Source: Qipengyuania gaetbuli
Lineage (GTDB): Bacteria > Pseudomonadota > Alphaproteobacteria > Sphingomonadales > Sphingomonadaceae
Assembly (NCBI RefSeq): GCF_009827315.1
Contig: NZ_WTYF01000004.1
Location: 868,001 to 932,000 of the forward strand
Direction: 5' to 3'
DNA: 64,000 nt
How positions within the stretch are numbered: the first letter of the stretch is position 1; the number at the start of each line of letters is the position of its first letter. The notes under the pieces are model-generated. The model was not told the origin of the DNA and ran no database searches. It saw only the letters and a program-made list of their open reading frames with translations. Shown in pieces: positions 698 to 13,177 of the stretch. The translations under genes were made by a program, and so were the position numbers.

Positions 698-939
698 GTG
701 GTTTCAAGCCTTTAAGGAAGCCTCGCTCAACTCACTCGAAGGTGAGTGACGACCGAGTAAGCGCGCGCTTGAATTCCCACATTAAGAGACCGCAAGCTCG
801 TTCGCTCGCACTTGCAGATCTTACAGGCACCCCTGACCTCGAACGATGGCTGGACTTGGGCCGTGACCGTATGGTTTGGATTTATCATCCCGAACGTTAA
901 AAGGCGTCACCAAGATCTGATCGTTAGAAAATCGGGGTC
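698..939. other. Intergenic tract after tRNA-Pro, no convincing gene
   Basis: About 240 bases between the tRNA and the first accessory gene. A reading frame stays open to 900 but begins inside the tRNA, has no ribosome binding site, and its product resembles nothing I recognise. It may be a relic of an integrated element. No terminator or repeat of the tRNA 3' end was seen. Confidence 0.4.
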
Positions 940-1509
940 ATGTTGAGTTCGAGACATCTTCGCGCCACGCTGAGGGTGGCCGCCAATGGCAGCCTCATAG
1001 TAATCGCATTGATGCTCGCGGTGTCCTTTATACTGAAAGCCTATTCTGCAAATGAAAGCACCGATGTCAGGAAAACCGCCGCGCTGGGGATTTCCGATCG
1101 ACGGGATGTAGCGATCTGGCGGGATGCCGGCCTCTCATCAAACGATCGATGCAGTGATATGATGGACGCTCTTGCGGATAGTTTCATCTCGAAAAATACG
1201 AACGACCTCGAAGGCGAACCTTTGAAACGCCGAATGGAGATGACAGAACAGCTTTGCTGGAATGAATGGAGAGAATTCGGTGAACTTCACAAGCCAGTGT
1301 TCACCGACGTTGTGGCCCAGAGCCGAATTGATCGCGCTTTTCGCGACTGCAAACTCGCCCTTCACGTTCAGGCCAAATTGGCGGGAACCCTCGCGGCAAG
1401 CTCGGTGGCAGCTGAGGATGATGACAACTCCCTCAGGAGTGCCGCAAACAGGTTCCGACAGGCTTCAGAACAGGCTTCAGCATGCAGGAGTGCCATGCTG
1501 ACGCTTTAA
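940..1509 (+). CDS. Hypothetical membrane-anchored protein
   Basis: A 189-residue protein I do not recognise. Residues about 14-35 form a hydrophobic segment after a basic N-terminus, so it is probably a signal anchor with the rest in the periplasm. The remainder is polar and helical in character, with four cysteines (in DRCSD, QLCWN, RDCKL and SACRS) that could form disulfides. The start codon has only a weak purine-rich stretch (GGGG) before it. The next gene on the same strand is also exported, 83 bases downstream, so the two may be functionally linked. No function can be assigned. Confidence 0.6.
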   Translation: MLSSRHLRATLRVAANGSLIVIALMLAVSFILKAYSANESTDVRKTAALGISDRRDVAIWRDAGLSSNDRCSDMMDALADSFISKNTNDLEGEPLKRRMEMTEQLCWNEWREFGELHKPVFTDVVAQSRIDRAFRDCKLALHVQAKLAGTLAASSVAAEDDDNSLRSAANRFRQASEQASACRSAMLTL

Positions 1510-1592
1510 GCGCGCTCCGGCGAACAAACCCTTCCTGCCCGTGCAACTTTACCGCTGCTCCGGATTAAAGTATCGTCTTCCCTGGAGGTCCT

Positions 1593-2027
1593 ATGCCGAA
1601 ATTCAACGCTAAAATAATGGCTTTCGCTGCAGCGACCGTCGTCATTGGCGGCATAAGTTTCGCACAGGAAAGGCCCAGCGCTGGCAGCGTGTCTCCTGCA
1701 TCGATACCCTCCGATGCCGAGGGCGCCATGGCGCCTCCAAGCCAATGGAATTGCGATTTATACGTGCAGGAATACCGAGATTGGCTTGATGCAGGCAATC
1801 GATTTGCGGATTGGCAATACGCCGGAAAGTCCTATCGCGACGTCGACACTGGCGAGAAATATACGGCTGCTCAGTGGCGGCTTTGGTTATCAAAGGCCGA
1901 TTGTCCTGGCGTAGTGTTCGCAAAGGATGAACTCGTCGTGCCGGTTATGCAGCAACTCATTTACGGCGTAGCTGCAGCTGGTGCTCCGGTAGTTGCAAGC
2001 CAAGTTGGAACCGCAAGTCCCGGCTGA
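1593..2027 (+). CDS. Hypothetical exported protein
   Basis: A 144-residue protein with a clear N-terminal signal peptide (hydrophobic core about residues 8-22, probable cleavage after SFA). The ATG is preceded by a good Shine-Dalgarno, GGAGG, seven bases upstream. The mature part is rich in Trp and Tyr (motifs WNCDLY, YRDWLDAG, AAQWRLW) and has two cysteines. I do not recognise the family. It follows another putative exported protein on the same strand and ends two bases before the convergent protease gene. Confidence 0.6.
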   Translation: MPKFNAKIMAFAAATVVIGGISFAQERPSAGSVSPASIPSDAEGAMAPPSQWNCDLYVQEYRDWLDAGNRFADWQYAGKSYRDVDTGEKYTAAQWRLWLSKADCPGVVFAKDELVVPVMQQLIYGVAAAGAPVVASQVGTASPG

Positions 2028-2028
2028 C

Positions 2029-2781
2029 TCATGCCGCAGTCTTGGCGCGAGCTTCGATCGCCTTCCTTAGAGCACCTTCCAAAGCGATTGCCACTCCAGA
2101 AGATTTCGTGCGCTTAGCGTGGATCGCTATGAGCCCGTACCGATCACCCATCGGGACAAGAAGCGGGGCACCGCTCCATCCTGGTTTCGTAGTGCAATCG
2201 TGTAACAAGACAATCGATCCGTGTCGCTGGCGCTTCGGGCGGCAGCCCACGTCCATTTGGAAGGTGCTATTTCCTCTTACTACAGGTCGGTAAGAGGCGA
2301 GAGCGGCGTTATTCCAATTGTAGGCCTTATTCCCTGCAAGCTTTAGCGGCACGCCTGGCGCGGCTCGATCCAGCCGGAGGACAGCCCAATCGATTGCGAA
2401 GCTTTCGTTCAGCTCGCGGCCCCGACCTCCCCTCTCGATCACCGAAAATGAACTCGTGAAGATTACCCTTCCTTCATTATCGCGCGTTTGGAATTCACAG
2501 TTTTCGGCTGGCAATTCCCGCCCTGTCGCACGACGGTAATTGAAGTGCGAAACGGCGAGAACCAAATCGCTTTTTTCCACGAGGCTGGCATTCGTCACGA
2601 AGGGCCCGCCCCTGCCTTTACAGACGATAGTTCCGATGGAGCCTTGTGCTGCCAAAGGCGCAAACACACTCTCGGCTGGTACCGCAGCTGCCAACGAAAA
2701 GAAGCAGCCAAGGCTGAGCGCGGCAGTGCGGGCAAGGTGCCAAGGTGATTTTGGTTTGAAGGAAGGATTGTGCATGCGCAC
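2029..2781 (-). CDS. Trypsin-like serine protease, exported
   Basis: A 250-residue chymotrypsin-fold (S1-type) protease with an N-terminal signal segment (about residues 15-37). The catalytic triad is visible: His79 in AVSHF, Asp131 in IDWAVLRL and Ser203 in GWSGAPLL. Four cysteines (54, 95, 180, 196) could form two disulfides, fitting a periplasmic or secreted location. It resembles small bacterial trypsin-like proteins rather than DegP, as there is no PDZ domain. The ATG at 2775 two codons later is an equally possible start. Its substrate is unknown. It is convergent with the exported protein ending at 2027. Confidence 0.8.
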   Translation of the reverse strand: MRMHNPSFKPKSPWHLARTAALSLGCFFSLAAAVPAESVFAPLAAQGSIGTIVCKGRGGPFVTNASLVEKSDLVLAVSHFNYRRATGRELPAENCEFQTRDNEGRVIFTSSFSVIERGGRGRELNESFAIDWAVLRLDRAAPGVPLKLAGNKAYNWNNAALASYRPVVRGNSTFQMDVGCRPKRQRHGSIVLLHDCTTKPGWSGAPLLVPMGDRYGLIAIHAKRTKSSGVAIALEGALRKAIEARAKTAA

Positions 2782-2872
2782 ACCTTGCCAACGCCCGGTA
2801 GACTAGTTCTGTAATTTGGGGTCCGCACAATCACTTAGTTGGCGTAAGCTGGGTGACCACTGTCAATTGCGC

Positions 2873-3388
2873 TCAGTCGTAAGCAACCGAGATCAAGATT
2901 TCGGCAGAATACACATCTTCCGGCAGACTTCCCTCTATGTCGATAGTCCCACCCACATAGACGACATCCCTGCCGTGCGCGTCGAGCCTTCCCCTCTCCC
3001 CGGTCGCATTCAGAAATTTGCTGTATGCCTGGATGTCCCGAACCGGGATCTTGGCACCTGACGCAAGCCCTTCCGCATCCACCTGCGAGGGGATCATTAT
3101 ACCGTAATGCCGTAGCGCCGCACCAGTTACCCGAAATCTGGCAGCGGATGATCCGCCGGACTGGGTGCTTTCGTTCGGGATTACAGTTCTAGTCGCAGCC
3201 GATGGGTGCTGGATTTTGCCGAAGTTGAGGTCCCTCTCAGCGCGAACTGACAGCGGCTCGATTACTTCAGCAGATGCTTTCCCTGAAGAAAACGCAGAGT
3301 TACCGGGCTCTGCGAGAGCCGCACTAGCGGAGCTCCACAGGAGGACAGCCAAGACCTCTCGGCAAAGCTTGCCGTATCGAGCGGGCAT
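2873..3388 (-). CDS. DUF4402 family exported protein
   Basis: A 171-residue protein with a signal peptide (cleavage near ALAEP). The mature N-terminus has the DUF4402 opening pattern (IEPLSVRAERDLNFGKI), and the C-terminus has the typical YVGGTIDI-to-ILISVAYD beta-strand ending. DUF4402 proteins are predicted immunoglobulin-like, pilin-like surface or periplasmic proteins, sometimes near chaperone-usher genes. No usher or chaperone lies here. The gene starts 3 bases downstream of the tandem PilZ gene on the same strand, so a shared transcript is likely. That would link a c-di-GMP effector to a surface structure, which is an inference. Confidence 0.75.
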   Translation of the reverse strand: MPARYGKLCREVLAVLLWSSASAALAEPGNSAFSSGKASAEVIEPLSVRAERDLNFGKIQHPSAATRTVIPNESTQSGGSSAARFRVTGAALRHYGIMIPSQVDAEGLASGAKIPVRDIQAYSKFLNATGERGRLDAHGRDVVYVGGTIDIEGSLPEDVYSAEILISVAYD

Positions 3389-3391
3389 CGA

Positions 3392-4030
3392 TCAATCTCC
3401 GCTAGCAAGCTTCGACATCTCCTGAATCGGCAGCGAGGACGATAAGGCGAAGCCGACACGATCGCCTTCGACCCAGCGAGCCGTCACGTTCTCGAAGTAG
3501 CGCCGCCCCACCTTGACCGTGGCCAGGCTTCCTCGTTCGATCCTGCCGTTAATTCGAACGCACAGACCCTTTTGCGCGAAATTGATGACTTCACCTTCAT
3601 AGCGTTTTTCGCCCACGAACACGACTGCGGGCACGTTCAGATCGACCCGAACAGATCGGTAATTCTTGGGATTGAGCGCTACAGCGTCGGAGGGCTCCGT
3701 ATTTTCCACGCCGAAACGATTGCCATCGATCCAGATGACCTTCGCTTCGCGAAATGCTTCGTCACCCCAGCGATATCGAACGCGCTGACCAACCGAGAAG
3801 GACTGGTCACTCTCGAAACCGGCTCCGTGCCCGGAAAAATCCTTCAAGAGGGCGATGATGGTACCGCTGTCGGTCTCCACGCAGGCAGGCATGAAAGTCC
3901 GGATCTTGCGGGTTGCATGACGGCGCTCCGTCAGCCCCCAGGAATGCTGCGGATCGGGGCGGAGCGAGAGGTTGGGCATCCCGTATGAGGATGACCGGTC
4001 GAGATGGCTTCGAACCAAAGACTGCTGCAT
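3392..4030 (-). CDS. Tandem PilZ-domain protein (c-di-GMP effector)
   Basis: A 212-residue protein made of two PilZ-like domains. The first (about residues 34-108) has both c-di-GMP binding motifs: RxxxR at Arg37-Arg41 and DxSxxG at Asp64-Gly69 (DFSGHG). The second (about 122-200) is degenerate: RxxR at 125/128 and NFAQKG in place of DxSxxG. PilZ proteins bind c-di-GMP and change activity of a partner such as a motility or exopolysaccharide apparatus. Here the first domain probably binds ligand and the second is structural. It lies directly upstream of the DUF4402 gene and 1.7 kb from a large c-di-GMP signalling cluster. Confidence 0.85.
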   Translation of the reverse strand: MQQSLVRSHLDRSSSYGMPNLSLRPDPQHSWGLTERRHATRKIRTFMPACVETDSGTIIALLKDFSGHGAGFESDQSFSVGQRVRYRWGDEAFREAKVIWIDGNRFGVENTEPSDAVALNPKNYRSVRVDLNVPAVVFVGEKRYEGEVINFAQKGLCVRINGRIERGSLATVKVGRRYFENVTARWVEGDRVGFALSSSLPIQEMSKLASGD

Positions 4031-4233
4031 TTTTGCTCTCCATCAGCGGCCAGGATCTTGCGATCCGAATGGAGACTGGATGTATGCGTAGCATCTCACT
4101 CGAAGCAGAACGCGGATATGCACCCAACTACGGAGTTCGCGTTAACTCCTTGTTTGTCATGCCGTGTTGACTGCTTGACGCCTCTTGCAGCCGATACACC
4201 TCGTATGGCGCCAATAGGAGGACGAGCGGACCC

Positions 4234-5193
4234 CTAGTTCCTGGCCAAGTAGGTGGGTTTGGAGGGAGTGGGGGCACCTCCAATCCATCTACGCATGTCG
4301 CCCGCGCCAATCCACTTCGCCGAGCGATGCGGGACCGAGTTTGTAAAAGCATAGAATGCGCGCGCTTGGGCATCCGCCATGCCCATCTCACGATAATAGG
4401 TCAGGTACCGCCGATTCTCCGGCGCATCCGCGGCGTAGTCATTCGGCTCTCGCCCGGTTTCATCGAGCCAACTATGCACCGCAAACTCAGCTCCGTCGGC
4501 AATCTCTTTGACCACTCCCGAGAGAAACAGGTCAACCGCTCCGGAGCGAACCGACCCTCGCCGAGGGACAAATGTCATCAGACCATGGGCACGGATCAAG
4601 CGCCCCAGTTTGAGATTTGCCGTATCATCTCGCGTCCCAGGGCATTCAACCATATCTATCTGGGTTAATTGCGGATGCCGACGCATCATGACCTGAAACA
4701 GTGCAGGGGTTGTCGTGTCGGTTTCGCCGACCAAGGCGACACGGAATCGATCAATAACGCGGAAAGGGCCGTAGGTTGCGATAGCCTTCGAATAGTCGCG
4801 CTCGCTCCGGTCGATCGGATGGGCCTGGCGGAGAGGAAAATTGGATGGGCTTGCCGCCTCAAGGACGGGCGAGTTTCGGATGGGGCGCCACGATTGCGGA
4901 GCAGCAGCCTTCGACGTTCGTGCGGGAATGCCAGGGTTCAGCACCACTGACCAACGCAAGGTGGTTGTCGTTCGCGACTCGATCCAAGTGGATACCTCGG
5001 CAACTGGGGAAGTTGCTTTTTCGGCCCCCTTGCCAAGAAACACATTGGCGTTTTCGAAAGACACAAAAGCCAAGTGGTCGGCCACACGCCAGCCCGAAGA
5101 GGCATCAGCAACAGGCTCTGACGACTGTGCAGAAACGGACCCGCCCATGAGGCATCCAACGAGGACACAAAGTGGCGCAACGAGTCGAAGCAT
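4234..5193 (-). CDS. ClpP/crotonase-like periplasmic protein (COG3904-like)
   Basis: A 319-residue exported protein; a signal peptide ends near SVSAQ. The second half matches predicted periplasmic ClpP-fold proteins: a segment like LGRLIRAHGLMTFVP, a Ser in the position of the usual nucleophile (VRSGAVDLFLSG) and a following His (AEFAVHSW). These proteins are thought to be serine hydrolases or peptidase-like, but few have been tested. The N-terminal 130 residues are not recognised. The gene is monocistronic as far as I can see, with 203 bases separating it from the PilZ gene downstream. Confidence 0.6.
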   Translation of the reverse strand: MLRLVAPLCVLVGCLMGGSVSAQSSEPVADASSGWRVADHLAFVSFENANVFLGKGAEKATSPVAEVSTWIESRTTTTLRWSVVLNPGIPARTSKAAAPQSWRPIRNSPVLEAASPSNFPLRQAHPIDRSERDYSKAIATYGPFRVIDRFRVALVGETDTTTPALFQVMMRRHPQLTQIDMVECPGTRDDTANLKLGRLIRAHGLMTFVPRRGSVRSGAVDLFLSGVVKEIADGAEFAVHSWLDETGREPNDYAADAPENRRYLTYYREMGMADAQARAFYAFTNSVPHRSAKWIGAGDMRRWIGGAPTPSKPTYLARN

Positions 5194-5751
5194 GGGCCCC
5201 GTTTCGCCAGCCGCCCCTCTCTCACGCGTAAATCTTCATGGTTAAGGACCGTTAGGGGATCGCAAATTTGACGCGAACATGGGTGGTAAATATCTGCAAT
5301 ACCAACCGAATTTTCCATCTCCTAGTAGTGACTACCGATTTAATCGTTAACCTTTGCGAAATTCATGTCGGCTCTTCGGACGGGTGCTTACGTTGCATTT
5401 TCCGGCAAAGTGTCACCCTCGGTTTTAGGGCAGCGACTTCCTGCAATTACTCTTTCTACAAGCGGTGATCGAGGGCTCCACTCGTGGCTGAAGGGGGGCT
5501 TCGACACGCACTCCCTTCATTAGAAATTAATCATATTTCTTAATTGCGCGGAAGATCGAAGAGCGGTAAGAAAGTTTCAGAAAGCTGATTGCGTAATGGG
5601 CTTTATTAAGGTTGTCCTTGATCCGTCAGGGTCAGCGTAGCGACCCCTAGCGCAGCTTTTGAGCCTCGAAAATTTTGGTCTTATATTAATTACATGCTAT
5701 TAAACGTGCACTGCCGCCGGCCAAAGAATGCCGGGGCTGAAGGGGTCGGTC
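5194..5751. other. Long AT-rich intergenic region, divergent promoters
   Basis: About 560 bases between two divergently transcribed genes (4234-5193 minus, 5752-8451 plus). It is clearly AT-richer than its surroundings and contains no convincing coding frame. It should hold the promoters for both genes. One good sigma70-like site lies just upstream of the kinase. No operator or RNA element was recognised. Confidence 0.5.
5659..5687 (+). promoter_or_regulatory. Candidate sigma70-type promoter of hybrid kinase
   Basis: TTGAGC at 5659-5664 and TATATT at 5682-5687 are separated by a 17-base spacer, about 65 bases before the kinase start at 5752. Both boxes are close to consensus. This is sequence resemblance only. 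Confidence 0.4.
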
Positions 5752-8451
5752 ATGCGCGATGGAATCCTGAAGGATGTTCTCCGTTCGATTAGCCAGGGCG
5801 TGCTCATCGCAGACGTCGATCGGAAGATAACCGATGCGAATGATGCCTTCACAGCCATCACCGGATACAGCCTGCGGGAAATCATCGGCGGCAGATGCGA
5901 TTTTCTTCAGGGCCCGGAAACCAGCGAAGAAACAATTGCGGCAATTAAGGCGGCCCTGGCTGAACGCAAAGAATTTTCAGGAGAAATCCTGAACTACAAG
6001 AAATGTGGTACCCCATTTTGGAATGACCTCTCGATTTCTCCGACGTTCGACGAAGCAGGAGAACTGACAGGGTACATTGGCATAACCCGCGACCTGACGG
6101 CCTACAAAGACTTGGAAGGTACTTTGCAGGACTATGCAAAGACCAACGAATGGATCTTTGACCGTGCAGGCGCGGGCATGGTCATTCATGCGCCCGACGG
6201 AAAAATTCTCGCAATGAACCCGGCGGCAAAAGCTATCCTGCACATTTCGGATGACCCGACCGGTGAAGATACCACGTCGGAGCGATGGTATTTCGTCCGC
6301 GAGGACGGATCCCGCATGCCCGAAGCGGAGTTCCCATTCGTTGTCGTGATGCGAATGAAAACAGCGGTTCGCGATATGATTCTCGGCAGCAGGGTTGCGG
6401 AAACAGGAGCAACGGTGTGGCTGCGATGTGATGGTTATCCCGAGTTCGACCCGCAAGGAAAAGTGGATCGGGTACTCATCACATTTAGCGACATTTCGAA
6501 AATCCGCAGCCTGCAACTCAAGGCTGAGCGAGACCGCGAGCGTTTCGCTCTCGCTTCCGTGGCATCGAACACCATCGTCTTCGATTGGCAGATAAAGTCA
6601 GGCGACTTCTGGGCGAGCGACACATACTCCGTGATGTTCGGTATTGCACCTCCGTCCAAACGAACTCTTGATATAATCCCTGATTATGTTCTGGAGGAAG
6701 ACAGGCAGAAGTATCAGAACGAGCTTCTCGCTGCGATCGGCGAACACCAAGGTTTCCTGGTCAGGAACTTCCGGTATCGGCGACCGACAGGCGATGTGGG
6801 GTATGCCCGTTCCGAATATCTCCTGCACTACAACAAGTCAGGGGATCTTCACCGCATAGTAGGGTCGAAAAGCGACCTCACCGAAGATTATCAAAGAACA
6901 ATGCAGCTGCGGCGGTCCGAAGAGCGATTCCAGCGGCTTGCAAAGCTTTCCAATGACGTTGTCTGGGAGGTTGATCTCGAAACCGAGGAGCTATGGCTGG
7001 CGCCGGAGTGGCGCGAACGTCTCGGGCTTTCATCGGATCTGAAGATATCGAGTCTAAACGACTGGCTCGACATCATCGTTCCTGAAGACCAGCCACGCAT
7101 CCGCAAGCAGTGGTTCGAAGCGCTACATAGCACCGCACGTCGCAGGTACGCGGAGTATCGAGTCCGCGGCTCCTCCGGTTATGTGATCATTGAGGACCAT
7201 TCCGCCATCATGCGGGACGACGATCAGAACGCTGTGAAGGTCGTCGGGTATCTTCGCGACGTGACGGCTCTTCGCAGCCAGGAGGAGCGGGACAGGCAAA
7301 GCGAGCGGCTTGAAGCTCTTGGCAAATTGACCGGCGGTGTAGCGCACGACTTCAACAACATGCTCATGGTCATATTGGGCAATGCAGAGATGCTGGGCGA
7401 GGATCTGCAAGACCCGGAGCTGCATTCGATGGTCGAACTCATTCTGACCGCGGCTAGCAATGGCGCCGAACTTACAAGCCGGCTTCTGTCATTTTCCCGT
7501 AAGCAGCCCATGCTGCCGCAGCCGATCGTTCTGCGCGATCATCTGGATAAAACGCGGAAACTCATCCGCCATGGCCTTACAGAAAATATCGAACTGGAGG
7601 TCGAACTACCGAAAAATCCGGTCTCGGTCGAAGTCGATCCCAGCCAATTGGACAATGCCCTCATCAACTTGGCGATCAATGCGCGGGATGCGATGCCGAC
7701 GGGTGGCAAGGTCTCCTTGAGCGTCACTCGCAAGGTCGTATCGCGGAATGACACGGTCAATTCCATCGGGCTTGAGCCCGGTCGCTATGTCGTCATCAGT
7801 GTTAGCGATACGGGCCAAGGTATAGCCGACGACGATCTTTCGCACGTTCTCGAACCCTTTTTTACGACCAAGCCGGTCGGCGAAGGCAGCGGCCTTGGTC
7901 TGAGCATGGTTTACGGGTTCGCGAAGCAGTCGGGCGGCGACCTGTCCATTGAGAGCGAAGTCGGAAAAGGCACCAAGGTAAGCATAATTCTTCCCGAGCT
8001 ATTGGCCAAATCGAGCCCTACGGTAGTCGGGCAAGACGATCGAGCACCCGCGGACTTGACCACGGTTCTGGTCGTGGAAGATGAAGAGCCGGTGCGCGAG
8101 AGCGTGATAAGACGACTAGAAAAATTCGGGCTTCATGCAATTGGAGCTGAAAACGCGGACCATGCGCTCGAGCTGGCGAGCGAAGGTATCGATTTCGATG
8201 TCCTGCTGACAGATGTCGTGATGCCGGGCACAATGGATGGCTTCGATCTGGCCGAAGCACTCAGGATGTCGCTCAAAGAGCTGAAGATCATCTTCACGTC
8301 CGGTTATCCGCCGGGGCCTGTTTGGGCGCAGAAATTCAGGGTTGGCACGGACTGCTTTCTACAAAAGCCCTACACCAAGGACCAGCTGCTCAAGGCATTG
8401 ATGGAAGTACAGGCAGGCAATGCCAATGCAGCGAAACGAAGGGAAAACTGA
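5752..8451 (+). CDS. Hybrid histidine kinase: LOV-like PAS, three more PAS, HisKA, HATPase, REC
   Basis: About 899 residues, no membrane segment. The first domain (about 10-118) is LOV-like: GGRCDFLQG places Cys49 at the flavin-adduct position, and the FMN-contacting asparagines of NYKKCGTPFWN are kept (81, 91). However, the usual NCR is RCD, and the conserved Gln in the last strand is Thr112. Three further PAS-like domains follow to about residue 505. The kinase core has the H-box VAHDFNN (His532), the N-box NLAINARDAM, DTGQGIAD and GSGLGLSM. A C-terminal receiver has VEDEE, Asp821 in LLTDVVMPG and KPY. I chose 5752 over 5728 because AAGGGG precedes it. It converges with the REC-EAL-REC-HTH gene 17 bases away, a likely partner. 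Confidence 0.9.
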   Translation: MRDGILKDVLRSISQGVLIADVDRKITDANDAFTAITGYSLREIIGGRCDFLQGPETSEETIAAIKAALAERKEFSGEILNYKKCGTPFWNDLSISPTFDEAGELTGYIGITRDLTAYKDLEGTLQDYAKTNEWIFDRAGAGMVIHAPDGKILAMNPAAKAILHISDDPTGEDTTSERWYFVREDGSRMPEAEFPFVVVMRMKTAVRDMILGSRVAETGATVWLRCDGYPEFDPQGKVDRVLITFSDISKIRSLQLKAERDRERFALASVASNTIVFDWQIKSGDFWASDTYSVMFGIAPPSKRTLDIIPDYVLEEDRQKYQNELLAAIGEHQGFLVRNFRYRRPTGDVGYARSEYLLHYNKSGDLHRIVGSKSDLTEDYQRTMQLRRSEERFQRLAKLSNDVVWEVDLETEELWLAPEWRERLGLSSDLKISSLNDWLDIIVPEDQPRIRKQWFEALHSTARRRYAEYRVRGSSGYVIIEDHSAIMRDDDQNAVKVVGYLRDVTALRSQEERDRQSERLEALGKLTGGVAHDFNNMLMVILGNAEMLGEDLQDPELHSMVELILTAASNGAELTSRLLSFSRKQPMLPQPIVLRDHLDKTRKLIRHGLTENIELEVELPKNPVSVEVDPSQLDNALINLAINARDAMPTGGKVSLSVTRKVVSRNDTVNSIGLEPGRYVVISVSDTGQGIADDDLSHVLEPFFTTKPVGEGSGLGLSMVYGFAKQSGGDLSIESEVGKGTKVSIILPELLAKSSPTVVGQDDRAPADLTTVLVVEDEEPVRESVIRRLEKFGLHAIGAENADHALELASEGIDFDVLLTDVVMPGTMDGFDLAEALRMSLKELKIIFTSGYPPGPVWAQKFRVGTDCFLQKPYTKDQLLKALMEVQAGNANAAKRREN

Positions 8452-8467
8452 CGCCAATGACCACAGA

Positions 8468-10297
8468 CTAGTCGCTGAACGAAGCCTGCTCATACAACCT
8501 GGTCAGTTCGGTAGCATTCCGGGTGTTCGTTTTTTTCAGTATGTTGGCTCTGTGAACCTCCACGGTTCTGTGGCTAAGTCCTAGAACCAGTGCTACTTCC
8601 TTGCTGCTCTTTCCTTCGGCCGTGAGTGCCGCAACTTCCCGTTCGCGCGGCGTCAAATTCTCTAGCGATTTCTTGCTTTCCGTCGCCAGCCGCAGTTTGA
8701 ACCGCAGGCCGCGCGACGCAATAACTCTTTCATTTATCCGCTCGGCAATGGCTTTCATCGTGCTGGGTTTCTCGATCAGGTCGACGGCGCCCTCTGACAT
8801 AACATCGACTGCAAGCTTAAGATCGGCATGCGACGTGAAGATGAGAACCGGCATCCCTCGATGGTTGCTTGGAATGGCTTTCAATGTATCCAGCCCATCG
8901 ATCTGAGGCATCCTGAAATCCAAGAGGCAACAATCGAAATGTTCGCTTTCGAGGCTCTCTAGAAAATCCTTCCCACTGCAGAAGGGCCTGCAGGAAAAGC
9001 CAAGCCTCGATAGACCCCGAACCAGGGTCTGCCTCACAGCCGCTTCGTCATCGACTATTGCGACGTGATAGCCTCCGGCTGCCTTGTCGGGACCGCCGTC
9101 CCCTTGTTCAGCTTCGCAAACGTTAGCCGGAGGCTGATAGGACATCGCGAACGCAGATGCCTCTTCAGACATCAGCGGCTTGGAAACCCAGAAGCCTTGC
9201 AGGGCACTGCAACCCATGGCTTCCAGTGCAAGCGCAGTTTCCTCGTCCTCAACCCCCTCGGCCGTGCAACTCATGCCAGCGCTCGAGCCCATCTGGATTG
9301 CTGCGCGCACAACGCTGAGCGCGATTGGATCCTCGAGCATTCTCGATACAAACTCGCGATCAATCTTGATTTCCGAGAACGGGAAACTCGAAAGCTGCTG
9401 GAGGGAGGAAAAGCCCACTCCGAAATCATCGATCGCTACACCGAAGCCTTTGGTTCGAAGCTTCGTGATTTTCCGCAAGATATCCAATCGTCGCGGCAGG
9501 TTCTGATGCTCGGTAATTTCGAAGACGAACTGTTCGGGTTCGAGCCCGCTGTCCAAGGCGTAAGCACATACCTGGTCGACCAGGTCGATATTCGAAATCG
9601 TATCCGGCTCAAAATTGATCGCCAAGCTCTGGTCCGAGGCCAAGTTTTCGATCGACCAATCAATTGCCTTTCGGCTGAGTTGCCAAGTGGCATCGTCCGA
9701 CCTTCCGGCCATCTTGAGGCGCCCCAAGAGTTCCTCCGCTCCGAGCGCGCTTCCATCAGCCTTGTCCAATCTAGCTAGTACCTCGTAGCCGACAATACGC
9801 CGGCTGCCTGCAGCGATCTTGGGCTGGAACGCAGGACAAAGATTTTCGAACAAGGAATCAACGTCGAATTGGGGCTCAGGATCAGCCTTTGAAAAAACGG
9901 GCGTTTCCCATAGTGTGGGTCTGACCTTTCCTTCCCCTTCAAGAAGGCGCTTAAGGTCGTTTTGACCGAACGGCTTAGGCAATACGCCGGAAATCAGCCC
10001 TTCGCTGCCGCCCAGCACCCGCCGACCGGCCTCGAGCATGGAGCGACCGCCTCCACTCATCAGGAAAATTCGGCCGTCAAAATTCTTCTCAAACAATTGC
10101 TCGATAACATCGATGCCGTCCAATCTGGGCATTTGCATATCGACAATCACATCGACGTCCCGGCCTCCTGCAATGGCAGCAGCAACGAAAGCTGTTGGGT
10201 CGGAGAAATAGGCGGCGGATTTGCCGAGGCGAGCGGCAAACTTCGCGATCAAGGCGCCGCAGTCCGGATCGTCATCAAGAATTAATAGAGAAGTCAT
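8468..10297 (-). CDS. REC-EAL-REC-LuxR HTH response regulator/c-di-GMP phosphodiesterase
   Basis: A 609-residue four-domain fusion. REC1 (about 3-120) has acidic residues 8-10, Asp53 (IVDMQMP) and Lys108 (LPKPF). EAL (about 150-385) keeps c-di-GMP hydrolysis residues: ExLxR as EVLAR (Glu172), Asn228, Glu260, Asp290-Asp291 (IDDFG), Lys311 (KID), Glu347 and Glu350 (AEGVE), Gln367 (LQGF). REC2 (about 410-525) is FixJ-like with Asp416/417, Asp460, Thr488 and Lys510. The end (about 548-605) is a LuxR/FixJ helix-turn-helix with LTPREREV and SHRTVEVHR. It should therefore both degrade c-di-GMP and bind DNA under control of two phosphorylation sites. The likely donor is the adjacent convergent hybrid kinase. 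Confidence 0.93.
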   Translation of the reverse strand: MTSLLILDDDPDCGALIAKFAARLGKSAAYFSDPTAFVAAAIAGGRDVDVIVDMQMPRLDGIDVIEQLFEKNFDGRIFLMSGGGRSMLEAGRRVLGGSEGLISGVLPKPFGQNDLKRLLEGEGKVRPTLWETPVFSKADPEPQFDVDSLFENLCPAFQPKIAAGSRRIVGYEVLARLDKADGSALGAEELLGRLKMAGRSDDATWQLSRKAIDWSIENLASDQSLAINFEPDTISNIDLVDQVCAYALDSGLEPEQFVFEITEHQNLPRRLDILRKITKLRTKGFGVAIDDFGVGFSSLQQLSSFPFSEIKIDREFVSRMLEDPIALSVVRAAIQMGSSAGMSCTAEGVEDEETALALEAMGCSALQGFWVSKPLMSEEASAFAMSYQPPANVCEAEQGDGGPDKAAGGYHVAIVDDEAAVRQTLVRGLSRLGFSCRPFCSGKDFLESLESEHFDCCLLDFRMPQIDGLDTLKAIPSNHRGMPVLIFTSHADLKLAVDVMSEGAVDLIEKPSTMKAIAERINERVIASRGLRFKLRLATESKKSLENLTPREREVAALTAEGKSSKEVALVLGLSHRTVEVHRANILKKTNTRNATELTRLYEQASFSD

Positions 10298-10584
10298 TCG
10301 ACCACCCGAAACCGCCCTCGGTGGAAAGGTATGCTTTCGCGTTGGTCTGTTTGCAAGAGCCTAGAAGCACGTCTCGATCCGTTCGAGAAAATCTCAAAAG
10401 GGCCCAAGTGAGCAGCGGACTGCCGAGCCCAATCGATCACGAATTGCTTACTCGTGCTCGCCTCGTCCGTCTCACTCGCATGTGGGCCAAATGTTTGCAC
10501 CTGACAGCGGCCTCGCACCAGTTTTACCGAGATCGGGATGTACGACGCGCTGGCTTGCCGCTCACGACCTGATTGCGGATGCAA
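10294..10584 (-). CDS. Possible small gene overlapping the REC-EAL-REC-HTH start
   Basis: A 96-codon frame whose TGA overlaps the ATG of the downstream regulator in an ATGA arrangement, the usual geometry of translational coupling. The predicted product is Arg/Ser-rich, has no recognisable domain, and composition does not strongly support coding. It may be a leader peptide, a real small protein or chance. I list it only because of the overlap. Confidence 0.25.
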   Translation of the reverse strand: MHPQSGRERQASASYIPISVKLVRGRCQVQTFGPHASETDEASTSKQFVIDWARQSAAHLGPFEIFSNGSRRASRLLQTDQRESIPFHRGRFRVVE

Positions 10585-10824
10585 GCGAGGTTACTCATCG
10601 GCATAAGAAATTGAATGCAATTCAGCCCGTCCTACAGATAGAAATTTCCGCGAAACCCGGACCTTAGAGATGGCGCGGTAGACGGCACCTTGAGCCATCA
10701 GAGCTGGGTTTTTTGACGGTGAAATGCGGATATTCGGTGATGATAGGTGAAGCGGCGTAGAACCACGTTAACCAAAATTTCTCGGGCCTGGTTCAACAGG
10801 TGGAGGCTTATCGAGTACCAATAA
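10298..10824. other. Intergenic region between divergent signalling genes
   Basis: About 530 bases separating the minus-strand REC-EAL-REC-HTH gene from the plus-strand small ORF/GAF-GGDEF pair. Apart from the doubtful 96-codon frame at 10294-10584 no gene is convincing. It is the natural place for promoters of both transcripts and, if the LuxR-type regulator is autoregulatory, for its operator. No clear dyad was found by eye. Confidence 0.4.
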
Positions 10825-11046
10825 GTGACAACAGACGTCGGCGAAATGATTGTGGAAAGAGCTAGTGCGAACTGGCTCCATGCTGATGTCCCCCCGCGCA
10901 TCGCAGAAGTTGCCGACCGTCAGCGAGAGAATTTACTCACCCTGGCGACTTCCTTGCTCGCCTTGGGCAAGTCAGAGTCCGAGGTCGTAGAGCTGATCGA
11001 GCGCGCGGCGGAGAGCTTCAATAGCGAACTTCAAAATCTAATGTGA
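10825..11046 (+). CDS. Small helical protein coupled to GAF-GGDEF cyclase
   Basis: A 73-residue acidic protein, predicted largely helical (segments around residues 24-45 and 50-70, e.g. SEVVELIERAAESF). It has no membrane segment and no cysteine. I do not recognise a family. Its TGA (11044-11046) is one base from the ATG of the GAF-GGDEF gene at 11048, so the two are almost certainly co-translated. A regulator or partner of the cyclase is the obvious guess. The start could also lie at the internal ATG at 10846. Confidence 0.55.
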   Translation: MTTDVGEMIVERASANWLHADVPPRIAEVADRQRENLLTLATSLLALGKSESEVVELIERAAESFNSELQNLM

Positions 11047-11047
11047 G

Positions 11048-12085
11048 ATGGACATCAAAATGAGCAATTGTGGAGTTCTTTCAATTGCAAAGCCTTCCGA
11101 CGAATATGGTCGGCAAAAGGCGCTCGAACGCCTCCAGATCCTAGACTCTCCATCCGAGAAACCGTTCGAAGAGATAACAAAATTGGTCTCGATGACGTTG
11201 GGCGTACCAATCTGCGCCGTTTCTCTCCTGGATGAGGATCGCCAGTGGTTCAAGTCATCGCAAGGGCTGGGCATTCAGCAAACCTGCCGCTCTGCGGCAA
11301 TTTGCGATCATGCCATTAAAGCAGACGCGCCTTTTATTGTTGAGGATGCAACGCTCGATGCTCGCTTTGCAAAAAACCCTTTCGTCACCGGCGAGCCCTA
11401 CATAAGGGCTTATGCCGGTATCCCGCTACGCATGCCTGACGGTTACTTAATCGGGACCCTTTGCGCGATCGATAAAAAACCGCGCGCGTTTTCAAATGCT
11501 GAGATCGCTGTCCTGGCTAATTTTGCGCGATTGGTTGTCGGCGAAATTGAACTGCGCGAGGCCGCTTCTGTCGACGCGTTGACCAGAATTGCATCGCGCC
11601 AAGCTTGGCGCACAGCGACCGAGAAGGCTCTCGCACAGGGCAAGCGCGACGGAACCCCTACTGCACTATTGCTGTTCGATCTGGACCACTTCAAGACCAT
11701 CAATGATACGCATGGTCATCTGGTAGGCGACCTAGTGCTCAGAGCCGCAGCGGCCACCGTCCAAAAAACGATCCGACGGAGTGATATTTTCGGAAGAGTG
11801 GGCGGCGAGGAATTTGCAATCACCTTGCCGGATACGGACTTGTCGAAGGCTGGTCTGATCGCAGAGAAAGTACGTCATGCTGTTCAGCGGTTGCGATTTG
11901 AGGAGGTCTCGGGCCTCGAATGTACGATAAGTGTGGGAGGGGCAATCTACGATCCAGGCTCGGATATCTCGGAGTGGATAGCGGCAGCTGACAAACGTCT
12001 GTATCTTGCGAAGAACGGTGGCCGCAACCGCGTGGAGATGGCCGATCGCGCAGTAAAGCGCGTCCCGCAGGCAAACTTAGCATAG
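11048..12085 (+). CDS. GAF-GGDEF diguanylate cyclase
   Basis: A 345-residue soluble protein. The N-terminal GAF domain (about residues 25-165) has the pattern seen in many environmental GAF-GGDEF proteins (LLDEDRQWFKSSQGL, TCRSAAICDHAI, YAGIPLRMPDG). The GGDEF domain (about 180-335) has the active GGEEF signature, the DLDHFKTIND metal/substrate motif and an inhibitory I-site RRSD exactly five residues before GGEEF, so product feedback is expected. It should make c-di-GMP from two GTP. It is coupled to the small ORF upstream and lies in the same cluster as the EAL protein, giving opposing activities side by side. The alternative start ATG at 11060 is possible. Confidence 0.92.
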   Translation: MDIKMSNCGVLSIAKPSDEYGRQKALERLQILDSPSEKPFEEITKLVSMTLGVPICAVSLLDEDRQWFKSSQGLGIQQTCRSAAICDHAIKADAPFIVEDATLDARFAKNPFVTGEPYIRAYAGIPLRMPDGYLIGTLCAIDKKPRAFSNAEIAVLANFARLVVGEIELREAASVDALTRIASRQAWRTATEKALAQGKRDGTPTALLLFDLDHFKTINDTHGHLVGDLVLRAAAATVQKTIRRSDIFGRVGGEEFAITLPDTDLSKAGLIAEKVRHAVQRLRFEEVSGLECTISVGGAIYDPGSDISEWIAAADKRLYLAKNGGRNRVEMADRAVKRVPQANLA

Positions 12086-12142
12086 GTCTACGAGTGGCTA
12101 CTGTCCCCGCATCAGAAATTCATAACCACCTGGTCGACTCGA

Positions 12143-12182
12143 AATCGGCCCTTCCGCTTTAGAATCGGCCCTTCCGCTTTAG
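12143..12182. repeat. Perfect 20-bp tandem duplication
   Basis: The unit AATCGGCCCTTCCGCTTTAG occurs twice back to back (12143-12162 and 12163-12182). The second copy runs into a small hairpin, CCGCTT-TAGG-AAGCGG (12174-12189). It lies between the GAF-GGDEF stop and the integrase relic. Confidence 0.9.
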
Positions 12183-12200
12183 GAAGCGGCCGCCTCGATC

Positions 12201-12480
12201 TCAGATCTCTGTTCCCCCAGCGAGCACTAGGGTATCTTCGATATCGACACCGAGTTACCTGACACTGTTCTCGATCTTGGAATAACCAATCAACATCTTG
12301 ACTGCGCTCAGGTTGCCTGTTCCCTGATAGATAATCGAAGCCTTCGTTCGTCGCATCGAGTGCGTCCCGTATTCCTCTCGACGAAGTCCTATGGCTGTCT
12401 CCCACTCGCCGACGCGGACGCTTTCGGGCGCGTTATTCGCCTCAAGCTATGAGGAATTGTCCGGGCGGATACGGTCACAA
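12201..12480 (-). pseudogene. Decayed tyrosine recombinase (integrase), C-terminal remnant
   Basis: On the minus strand, ending at TGA 12201-12203, the frame reads through the C-terminal catalytic region of an integrase family common in alphaproteobacteria. Visible are EEYGTHSMRRTKAS (the HxxR box), then TGNLSAVKMLIGYSKIE (the usual LLGHTKIE, with His replaced by Tyr), then SVR-stop-LGVDIED. The stop is TAA at 12255-12257, exactly where the catalytic Tyr codon of RYLG is expected. A second in-frame stop (TAG, 12447-12449) lies upstream. The N-terminal half is not recognisable. The gene is therefore dead, but it marks a past integration event at the right edge of the accessory region. Confidence 0.85.
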
Positions 12481-12763
12481 ACACACTATAGGTGCGCTTC
12501 GATCGCGCATTGCGCTTGGAATGCGATCGGCCTGCTGGCACCGCGCCAGCGAGCTGCCACCGACCAGCACAGTAGATGCGGTAGGGACGGCAAGGGTTGG
12601 AAATGCGCGTTTCGTCCGGTGCTCCAGGCACCTTCACCTTGTCTCGCGAAACCGCCGAAATGCCTGTAATTCATCGAATGGGCTAGCAGCGATCACCGAC
12701 GAGCTTCGCTCCGATTTCCTATATGTGCCGATATGGTTATTTTTCTCACGAAGGAGAAACCAA

Positions 12764-13177
12764 ATGGCACTTATCGAATCGCTTATCGGCCCCATCGCCT
12801 CGATCATCGACAAGATCATCCCCGACAAGGAAGCCCGTGCGAAGGCGAAGCTCGAACTGCTCGCGCTGGAAGGCACGCATGAACTCAAGTCCATCGAAGC
12901 CCGCCTTTCCGCCATCGTCGCCGAAGCCAATTCGGCCGATCCGTGGACCAGCCGCGCGCGGCCCAGCTTCCTCTACGTGATGTATGCGATCATCCTGTTC
13001 GTCATCCCCATGGGGATGCTGGCCGCCTTCTCGCCGCAGGCGGCAGGCGACATCGGCGACGGCATCACGCGTTACCTGCGCGGCTTGCCGGACGAGCTCT
13101 ACGCGCTCTTCGGCACGGGCTATCTCGGTTATACCGCCGCGCGCCAGTGGGGGAAGGCCAAGGGGGTGGAACGGTAA
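12764..13177 (+). CDS. Three-TM holin-like protein (GTA holin family)
   Basis: A 137-residue protein starting MALIESLIGP, preceded by a strong AAGGAG seven bases upstream. The N-terminus is an amphipathic helical region; two clear membrane helices follow (around residues 65-88 and 108-128). The pattern SADPWTSRARPSFLYVMY and the ending YTAARQWGKAKG match the 3TM holin family linked to release of gene transfer agents in Rhodobacterales and relatives. No other GTA or phage gene is nearby, so this is an orphan copy. It may act in lysis or release together with GTA genes elsewhere, or have another role. Confidence 0.75.
   Translation: MALIESLIGPIASIIDKIIPDKEARAKAKLELLALEGTHELKSIEARLSAIVAEANSADPWTSRARPSFLYVMYAIILFVIPMGMLAAFSPQAAGDIGDGITRYLRGLPDELYALFGTGYLGYTAARQWGKAKGVER

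Follow-up and report, generated by a model that had tools for sequence, protein, structure and literature searches.

The 64,000-nucleotide stretch of Qipengyuania gaetbuli DNA analysed here (the window) contains one frame of 609 residues with an ATG start on its minus strand, which encodes a response regulator with the domain order REC-EAL-REC-LuxR. The preliminary description of the sequence had proposed this four-domain reading, and it is borne out by the uninterrupted frame and by the Pfam matches to REC, EAL, REC and GerE. The regulator and its domains are as follows:

8468–10297, minus strand: REC-EAL-REC-LuxR response regulator, 609 aa (ORF list, Pfam and residue check)
9923–10297, minus strand: REC1, residues 1–125, with D8, D9, D53, S81 and K108 (Pfam and alignment)
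9176–9844, minus strand: EAL domain, residues 152–374, with the full catalytic set and the motif EVL (Pfam and alignment)
8735–9064, minus strand: REC2, FixJ-like, residues 412–521, with D416, D417, D460, T488 and K510 (Pfam and alignment)
8495–8659, minus strand: LuxR/GerE helix-turn-helix (HTH), residues 547–601 (Pfam)

The Pfam EAL family (PF00563) matches residues 152–374 with 172.9 bits against a cut-off of 31.3, GerE matches residues 547–601 with 62.1 bits against a cut-off of 23.5, and Response_reg matches two stretches with 129.4 bits, the best being residues 412–521. Every residue singled out in the preliminary description is found at its position, namely D53 and D460 of the receivers, and E172, N228, E260, D290, D291, K311, E347, E350 and Q367, which we take to be the metal-binding and catalytic residues of EAL. 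The further receiver residues listed above are present as well, and one correction concerns the catalytic signature, which reads EVL rather than EAL, the same as in RocR. Across five full-length protein clusters, including the window's own, all of these catalytic and receiver residues are invariant except at position 488, which is T in four clusters and S in one. The EAL residue set is complete in the window protein, in the four other clusters of this alignment (P0002–P0005), in Qipengyuania sp. ABI-127-1 (G021), in Erythrobacter sp. AP23 (G458), and in the N-terminal frame of a further relative, G005. The EAL domain of the window protein is thus a predicted c-di-GMP phosphodiesterase, expected from its residues to hydrolyse the second messenger. 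The one 609-residue frame, together with the full-length homologues, rules out that the ORF arose by chance or that two genes were misread as one.

Among solved structures, RocR is the best match by sequence (residues 4–378, 123.6 bits), followed by FixJ (5xso; residues 410–605, 109.9 bits). The C-terminal half, in which REC precedes a GerE HTH, has the FixJ/NarL-type arrangement. Judged by sequence, the regulator is a RocR/PvrR-like REC-EAL protein joined to a FixJ-like REC-LuxR protein; it differs from RocR and PvrR, which have no second REC and no HTH, and from FixJ, which has no REC-EAL ahead of its REC-LuxR. It scores below the curated cut-offs of both equivalog models, with 164.5 against 255 for FixJ (NF006900) and 186.8 against 580 for PvrR (NF052596). 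An AlphaFold model built on a 56-row alignment has a mean pLDDT of 87.3 and a pTM of 0.65, with pLDDT below 50 at residues 128–143 and 394–405 and with a helix (residues 514–546) connecting REC2 to the HTH. In a fold search with this model, four RocR chains rank first with an rmsd of 17.5–21.8 and a TMq of 0.37–0.38, indicating that the domains match and that their relative placement differs. Because the linkers are modelled with low confidence, tight coupling between the two halves is not evident. The interesting question is whether the halves communicate, in which case one chain would tie together kinase signalling, second-messenger breakdown and transcription. Three inverted repeats, short and imperfect, lie in the region 10290–11050, for which we claim no operator, and none was found in 5190–5735.

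The preliminary description had suspected that the architecture was unfamiliar, and it is indeed rare: in 5.8 billion proteins, searched in three ways, at least six full-length clusters were identified, including the window's own. In the first search, 7995 candidates sharing most words were scored, 1874 passed E 1e-10, and the best 120 of these were examined; among them are five full-length clusters, scoring 1351 to 485 bits, followed by a REC-EAL protein with 224 bits. The four clusters besides the window's are 88, 44, 43 and 41% identical to the window protein. Residues 400–609 as query gave 12 matches; one of these, P0121, adds a sixth cluster of full length, and another, P0122, is a 342-residue fragment in which Pfam recognises part of EAL, REC and GerE. 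A profile search with seven sequences, in which 7997 candidates were scored and 496 passed E 1e-40, placed P0001–P0005 first at 989–1013 bits, followed by a match at 329 bits, among the best 120 examined. These cluster counts are lower bounds, because the profile search missed P0121 and the search with residues 400–609 missed P0004, and the same architecture assembled from unrelated halves would escape homology searches of this kind.

The genome searches, together with the protein homologues, rule out that the architecture is confined to this genome. In a scan of 84,980 GTDB species, four domains lie in one frame in two of the 80 loci examined out of 329 confirmed, those of Qipengyuania sp. 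ABI-127-1 and Erythrobacter sp. AP23. Within the genus Qipengyuania/Erythrobacter, eight of 60 genomes, including the window's own, have a match at E 1e-50. Domain calls on the relatives' loci, made by single-sequence phmmer with window-derived domains so that divergent domains can be missed, assign the full chain to four of the 60 (the window's genome, G021, G458 and G015), a chain split over two overlapping frames to one (G005), and REC2-LuxR alone to three (G018, G205 and G454). In a family sample, 11 of 397 genomes matched at E 1e-60, namely the window's, G205 and nine from other genera, and no four-domain frame was seen in these nine. Plasmids gave no match at E 1e-30 (tblastn, 72,556 records). 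The split gene of G005 lies at 9308–11166 of its locus (L102) and has a near-identical unbroken copy in P0003; the split may be a sequencing error or a real break. No title or abstract opening among the papers listed in a literature search, which left subscription journals largely outside, names a REC-EAL-REC-LuxR chain, and we do not claim its absence from print. REC-EAL-REC-LuxR is a real, lineage-restricted architecture, and its principle is already set by VieA, PdeL and the BsmR/BsmT operon.

The regulator gene converges with the gene of a hybrid histidine kinase, the end of which is 16 bases from the regulator's stop codon:

5728–8451, plus strand: hybrid histidine kinase, 907 aa, with LOV-type PAS, further PAS, HisKA, HATPase and REC (Pfam)
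5767–6105, plus strand: LOV-type domain of the kinase, with the adduct Cys kept in the motif GGRCDFLQG (structure match and alignment)

A similar kinase adjoins the regulator or its relative in seven of the eight genomes, including the window's. Specifically, the two genes are convergent in the window's genome, G021, G005, G458, G018 and G205, while in G015 the kinase gene lies 10 bp upstream of the regulator on the same strand. The neighbouring kinases of the six other genomes have 891–900 residues, and the five that were compared are 39–43% identical to that of the window. The exception is G454, where no such kinase was found in the 18-kb stretch around the REC-LuxR gene. The conserved adjacency makes the 5728–8451 kinase the probable cognate kinase of the regulator. 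Moreover, G018 and G205 keep the kinase and REC2-LuxR without REC1-EAL, which points to REC2 as the likely target of the kinase. The core of the system thus looks like a kinase acting on REC2-LuxR, with the phosphodiesterase as an optional second output. The preliminary description had proposed two independent phosphorylation inputs, which the regulator may have; one kinase is adjacent, and the stand-alone REC2-LuxR proteins suggest REC2 as its target.

A dedicated Hpt for the hybrid kinase was not found among Pfam PF01627 matches in the genome, of which there are two, in frames of 806 and 982 residues far from the window; this family may miss some kinds of Hpt. G021 (L101, 4592–7015) and G005 (L102, 14082–16499) encode, next to the first kinase, another PAS hybrid kinase with about 806 residues, which is a candidate second input for REC1 there; no such second kinase is present in the first 16 kb of the window.

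The first domain of the kinase is matched best by LOV structures (6rhg, E 7.7e-27). We assume the roles of adduct Cys, FMN-phosphate Arg and active-site Gln for the aligned positions of the kinases. The adduct Cys is present in the kinases of the window, G458, G018 and G015 and is replaced by Trp in those of G021 and G005, indicating that light is not a conserved signal. The window domain has Thr at the active-site Gln position, where none of the six aligned kinases (that of G205 was not among them) has Gln, and Asp at the canonical FMN-phosphate Arg position. In what is described by Dietler et al. (2022, PMC9098866), the active-site Gln of LOV domains is generally dispensable. From these residues, blue light is a possible signal for the window kinase; in G021 and G005 it is excluded as the signal if the usual thioadduct chemistry applies.

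The preliminary description was sound on the domains of the regulator and left unmentioned the kinase, the neighbouring genes for a PilZ and a GGDEF protein, and the block of low GC content that carries them all:

3392–4030, minus strand: PilZ-domain protein, 212 aa (ORF list and Pfam)
11048–12085, plus strand: GAF-GGDEF protein, 345 aa (ORF list and Pfam)
10846–11046, plus strand: small ORF, 66 aa, separated by one base from the ATG of the GGDEF gene (ORF list)
706–12421, no strand: 11.7-kb low-GC block carrying the regulator, kinase, PilZ and GGDEF genes (DNA alignment and GC content)

Read by eye, the PilZ protein carries what we take to be the RxxxR and DxSxxG motifs, and the GAF-GGDEF protein what we take to be GGEEF and an RxxD I-site. 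In five of the eight genomes, the regulator or its relative has a PilZ gene nearby: in G021, G005, G458 and G205 this gene is immediately upstream of the regulator gene, and in the window it is on the far side of the kinase gene. The stretches surrounding G015, G018 and G454 yielded no PilZ gene. The homologue beside the regulator of Erythrobacter sp. AP23 is 38% identical to the window's over 199 residues. The GGDEF gene was seen in the window only, and none in the 18–20-kb stretches around seven relatives. The 66-residue ORF preceding it matches no Pfam family above cut-off and may be a coupled small protein.

The GC content, in 2-kb steps, is 54–57% in the first 12 kb of the window versus 61–67% in the rest. 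The block starts 8 bases past the end of a tRNA-Pro gene (621–697), and DNA alignment finds 272 and 274 bp at its site in the near relatives G453 and G011, whose YajC and AccC proteins are the two closest to those of the window. The spacing of yajC and accC is 13.8 kb in the window versus 2.36 kb in both relatives. Given its low GC content, the block is more simply read as gained by the window's lineage; alternatively, it may have been deleted in both relatives. A Pfam scan of 11 ORFs of the block revealed no integrase, and 601–760 and 12201–12600 have no sequence of 9 or more identical bases in common, in direct or inverted orientation. The cluster is about 1 kb from a tRNA-Ser gene in G021 and G005. 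Around G015 the only tRNA gene detected is about 8 kb away, and none turned up in the stretches surrounding G018, G205 and G458.

The relatives differ in their phosphodiesterase half. In P0121, positions 172, 228, 260, 290, 291, 311, 347 and 350 read A, D, M, K, M, V, D and A, so its EAL domain is very probably dead; both of its receivers keep their key residues, and its HTH is recognised by Pfam. In G015 the chain is full-length, with Gly at position 290 (D290G), and the EAL residue set is thus incomplete in both. P0121 and G015 indicate that phosphodiesterase activity is not needed in every member, and, taken with the REC2-LuxR proteins of G018, G205 and G454, they suggest that some lineages can do without the phosphodiesterase half. 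The same decay and absence would fit an EAL domain that is inactive in the window protein as well, leaving a FixJ-type transcription factor whose N-terminal half would be vestigial; however, the window copy and P0002–P0005, which are 41–88% identical to it, retain every catalytic residue listed, and we regard this explanation as highly improbable.

The tree of 21 REC-LuxR rows, from which P0122 and G454 were left out, has one open fork, nine of its 18 inner branches lack full support, and the program warns of long branches. In this tree, G018 and G205 form a pair (99/97) within forks (82/81, 91/95, 91/91 and 80/87) containing fused members. For both, it is therefore likelier, with moderate support, that the REC-EAL half was lost than that they represent the ancestral unfused state. 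No remnant of REC1-EAL was detected in the G018 and G205 stretches, where the tblastn matches at E < 0.01 fall on REC2 itself. G015 is not grouped with the other fused members and sits at the open fork on a long branch; a single origin of the fusion is nevertheless likely, given the shared kinase and the end-to-end alignment.

The same kinds of parts also occur together unfused. In three genomes from another genus of the family (G066, G270 and G393), genes for a kinase, a REC-EAL protein and a 202-residue REC-LuxR protein lie in a row on one strand. Their REC-LuxR proteins form a separate lineage in the tree, indicating a parallel association; subject to the long-branch warning, this rules the trio out as the direct ancestor of the fusion. 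Such separate genes, found also as BsmR/BsmT, would be consistent with two independent response regulators tethered by chance, for which the fusion would provide equal dosage only, and so would the low-confidence linker at 394–405, the patchy distribution, and the fact that the EAL half has decayed or been lost in relatives. Homologues only 31–44% identical to the window protein retain the fusion, which is unexpected for a neutral accident, and we consider chance tethering improbable.

Retention of the fusion over this range of identity argues for communication within the chain. One form that it could take is that of a trigger phosphodiesterase, in which EAL would serve mainly as a c-di-GMP sensor gating the LuxR output and not for bulk hydrolysis, as proposed for PdeL of E. 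coli, a protein with its HTH at the N terminus, joined straight to EAL, and without REC domains. The PilZ and GGDEF genes nearby fit such a role. However, P0121 retains its two receivers and its HTH despite the loss of most catalytic and metal-binding residues, EAL is missing altogether in G018 and G205, and the linkers are of low confidence in the AlphaFold model. We therefore hold a trigger mechanism to be possible, though rather unlikely. The natural series of intact EAL, D290G, dead EAL and absent EAL, with separate genes elsewhere, can be used to test what the fused phosphodiesterase contributes.

Our preferred reading is that the protein is probably a two-output regulator, a fusion of a REC1-EAL phosphodiesterase and a FixJ-type factor fed by the LOV/PAS hybrid kinase. 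The convergent kinase would most likely phosphorylate REC2, phosphorylated REC2 would dimerise, and the LuxR domain would then bind DNA, while REC1, with input from this or a different kinase, would modulate c-di-GMP hydrolysis by EAL. In this way, one chain could both change transcription and lower c-di-GMP, probably opposing or tuning its PilZ and GGDEF neighbours. Such a double role had been put forward in the preliminary description; the domains and residues fit it, while catalysis and DNA binding are predicted from sequence. Counting against the two-output reading, the kinase carries a REC of its own, which bears on the route of the phosphate, G015 falls outside the other fused members in the tree, the domains are placed differently from those of RocR, and G454 has no such kinase in its 18-kb stretch.

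A bolder version, which we think unlikely, is a single-molecule coincidence switch, in which a flavin (possibly blue-light) kinase would act on REC2, a second kinase would act on REC1, and c-di-GMP-bound EAL would gate the binding of LuxR to DNA. If true, the result would be a two-component response regulator that incorporates a trigger phosphodiesterase and is carried in a variable block with its own writer (GGDEF), eraser (EAL) and reader (PilZ).

Several known systems resemble the two-output regulator in part. VieA of Vibrio cholerae, as described in PMC4352251, is likewise a response regulator in which a c-di-GMP phosphodiesterase domain follows REC and precedes an HTH at the C terminus, and its kinase VieS is also a hybrid; it differs in having one REC, whereas the window protein has a second, FixJ-type REC at residues 412–521 before the HTH, and in the presence of an Hpt in VieS and of VieB in the operon. 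Direct DNA binding by VieA is said there not to have been demonstrated (PMC4352251). BsmR and BsmT of Stenotrophomonas maltophilia, which have been studied by experiment, pair a REC-EAL phosphodiesterase with a DNA-binding response regulator in one operon, as two proteins rather than one chain, and the effect of BsmR is described as independent of its phosphorylation (PMC5498567). PdeL shares with the window protein a LuxR HTH and an EAL domain in one chain, and is described as a phosphodiesterase that controls gene expression (PMC5052742). Within the genus itself, the LOV kinase of Q. flava (LOV-1477) is described as driving a REC-GGDEF protein (DGC-2902) and a PilZ reader (mPilZ-1753), a likewise LOV-to-c-di-GMP-to-PilZ pathway (PMC10267684; PMC12172448). 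It differs in that the response regulator is a cyclase, the kinase has no REC, and c-di-GMP is raised (PMC10267684; PMC12172448). Since the Q. flava pathway has been studied experimentally, a genetic setting exists in the genus.

Within the low-GC block, a Trypsin_2-like protein (29.3 bits, cut-off 27.6) and a DUF4402 protein are encoded at 2029–3388, adjoining the PilZ gene, and a protein of the GTA_holin_3TM family (97.5 bits) is encoded at 12722–13177, just outside the block.
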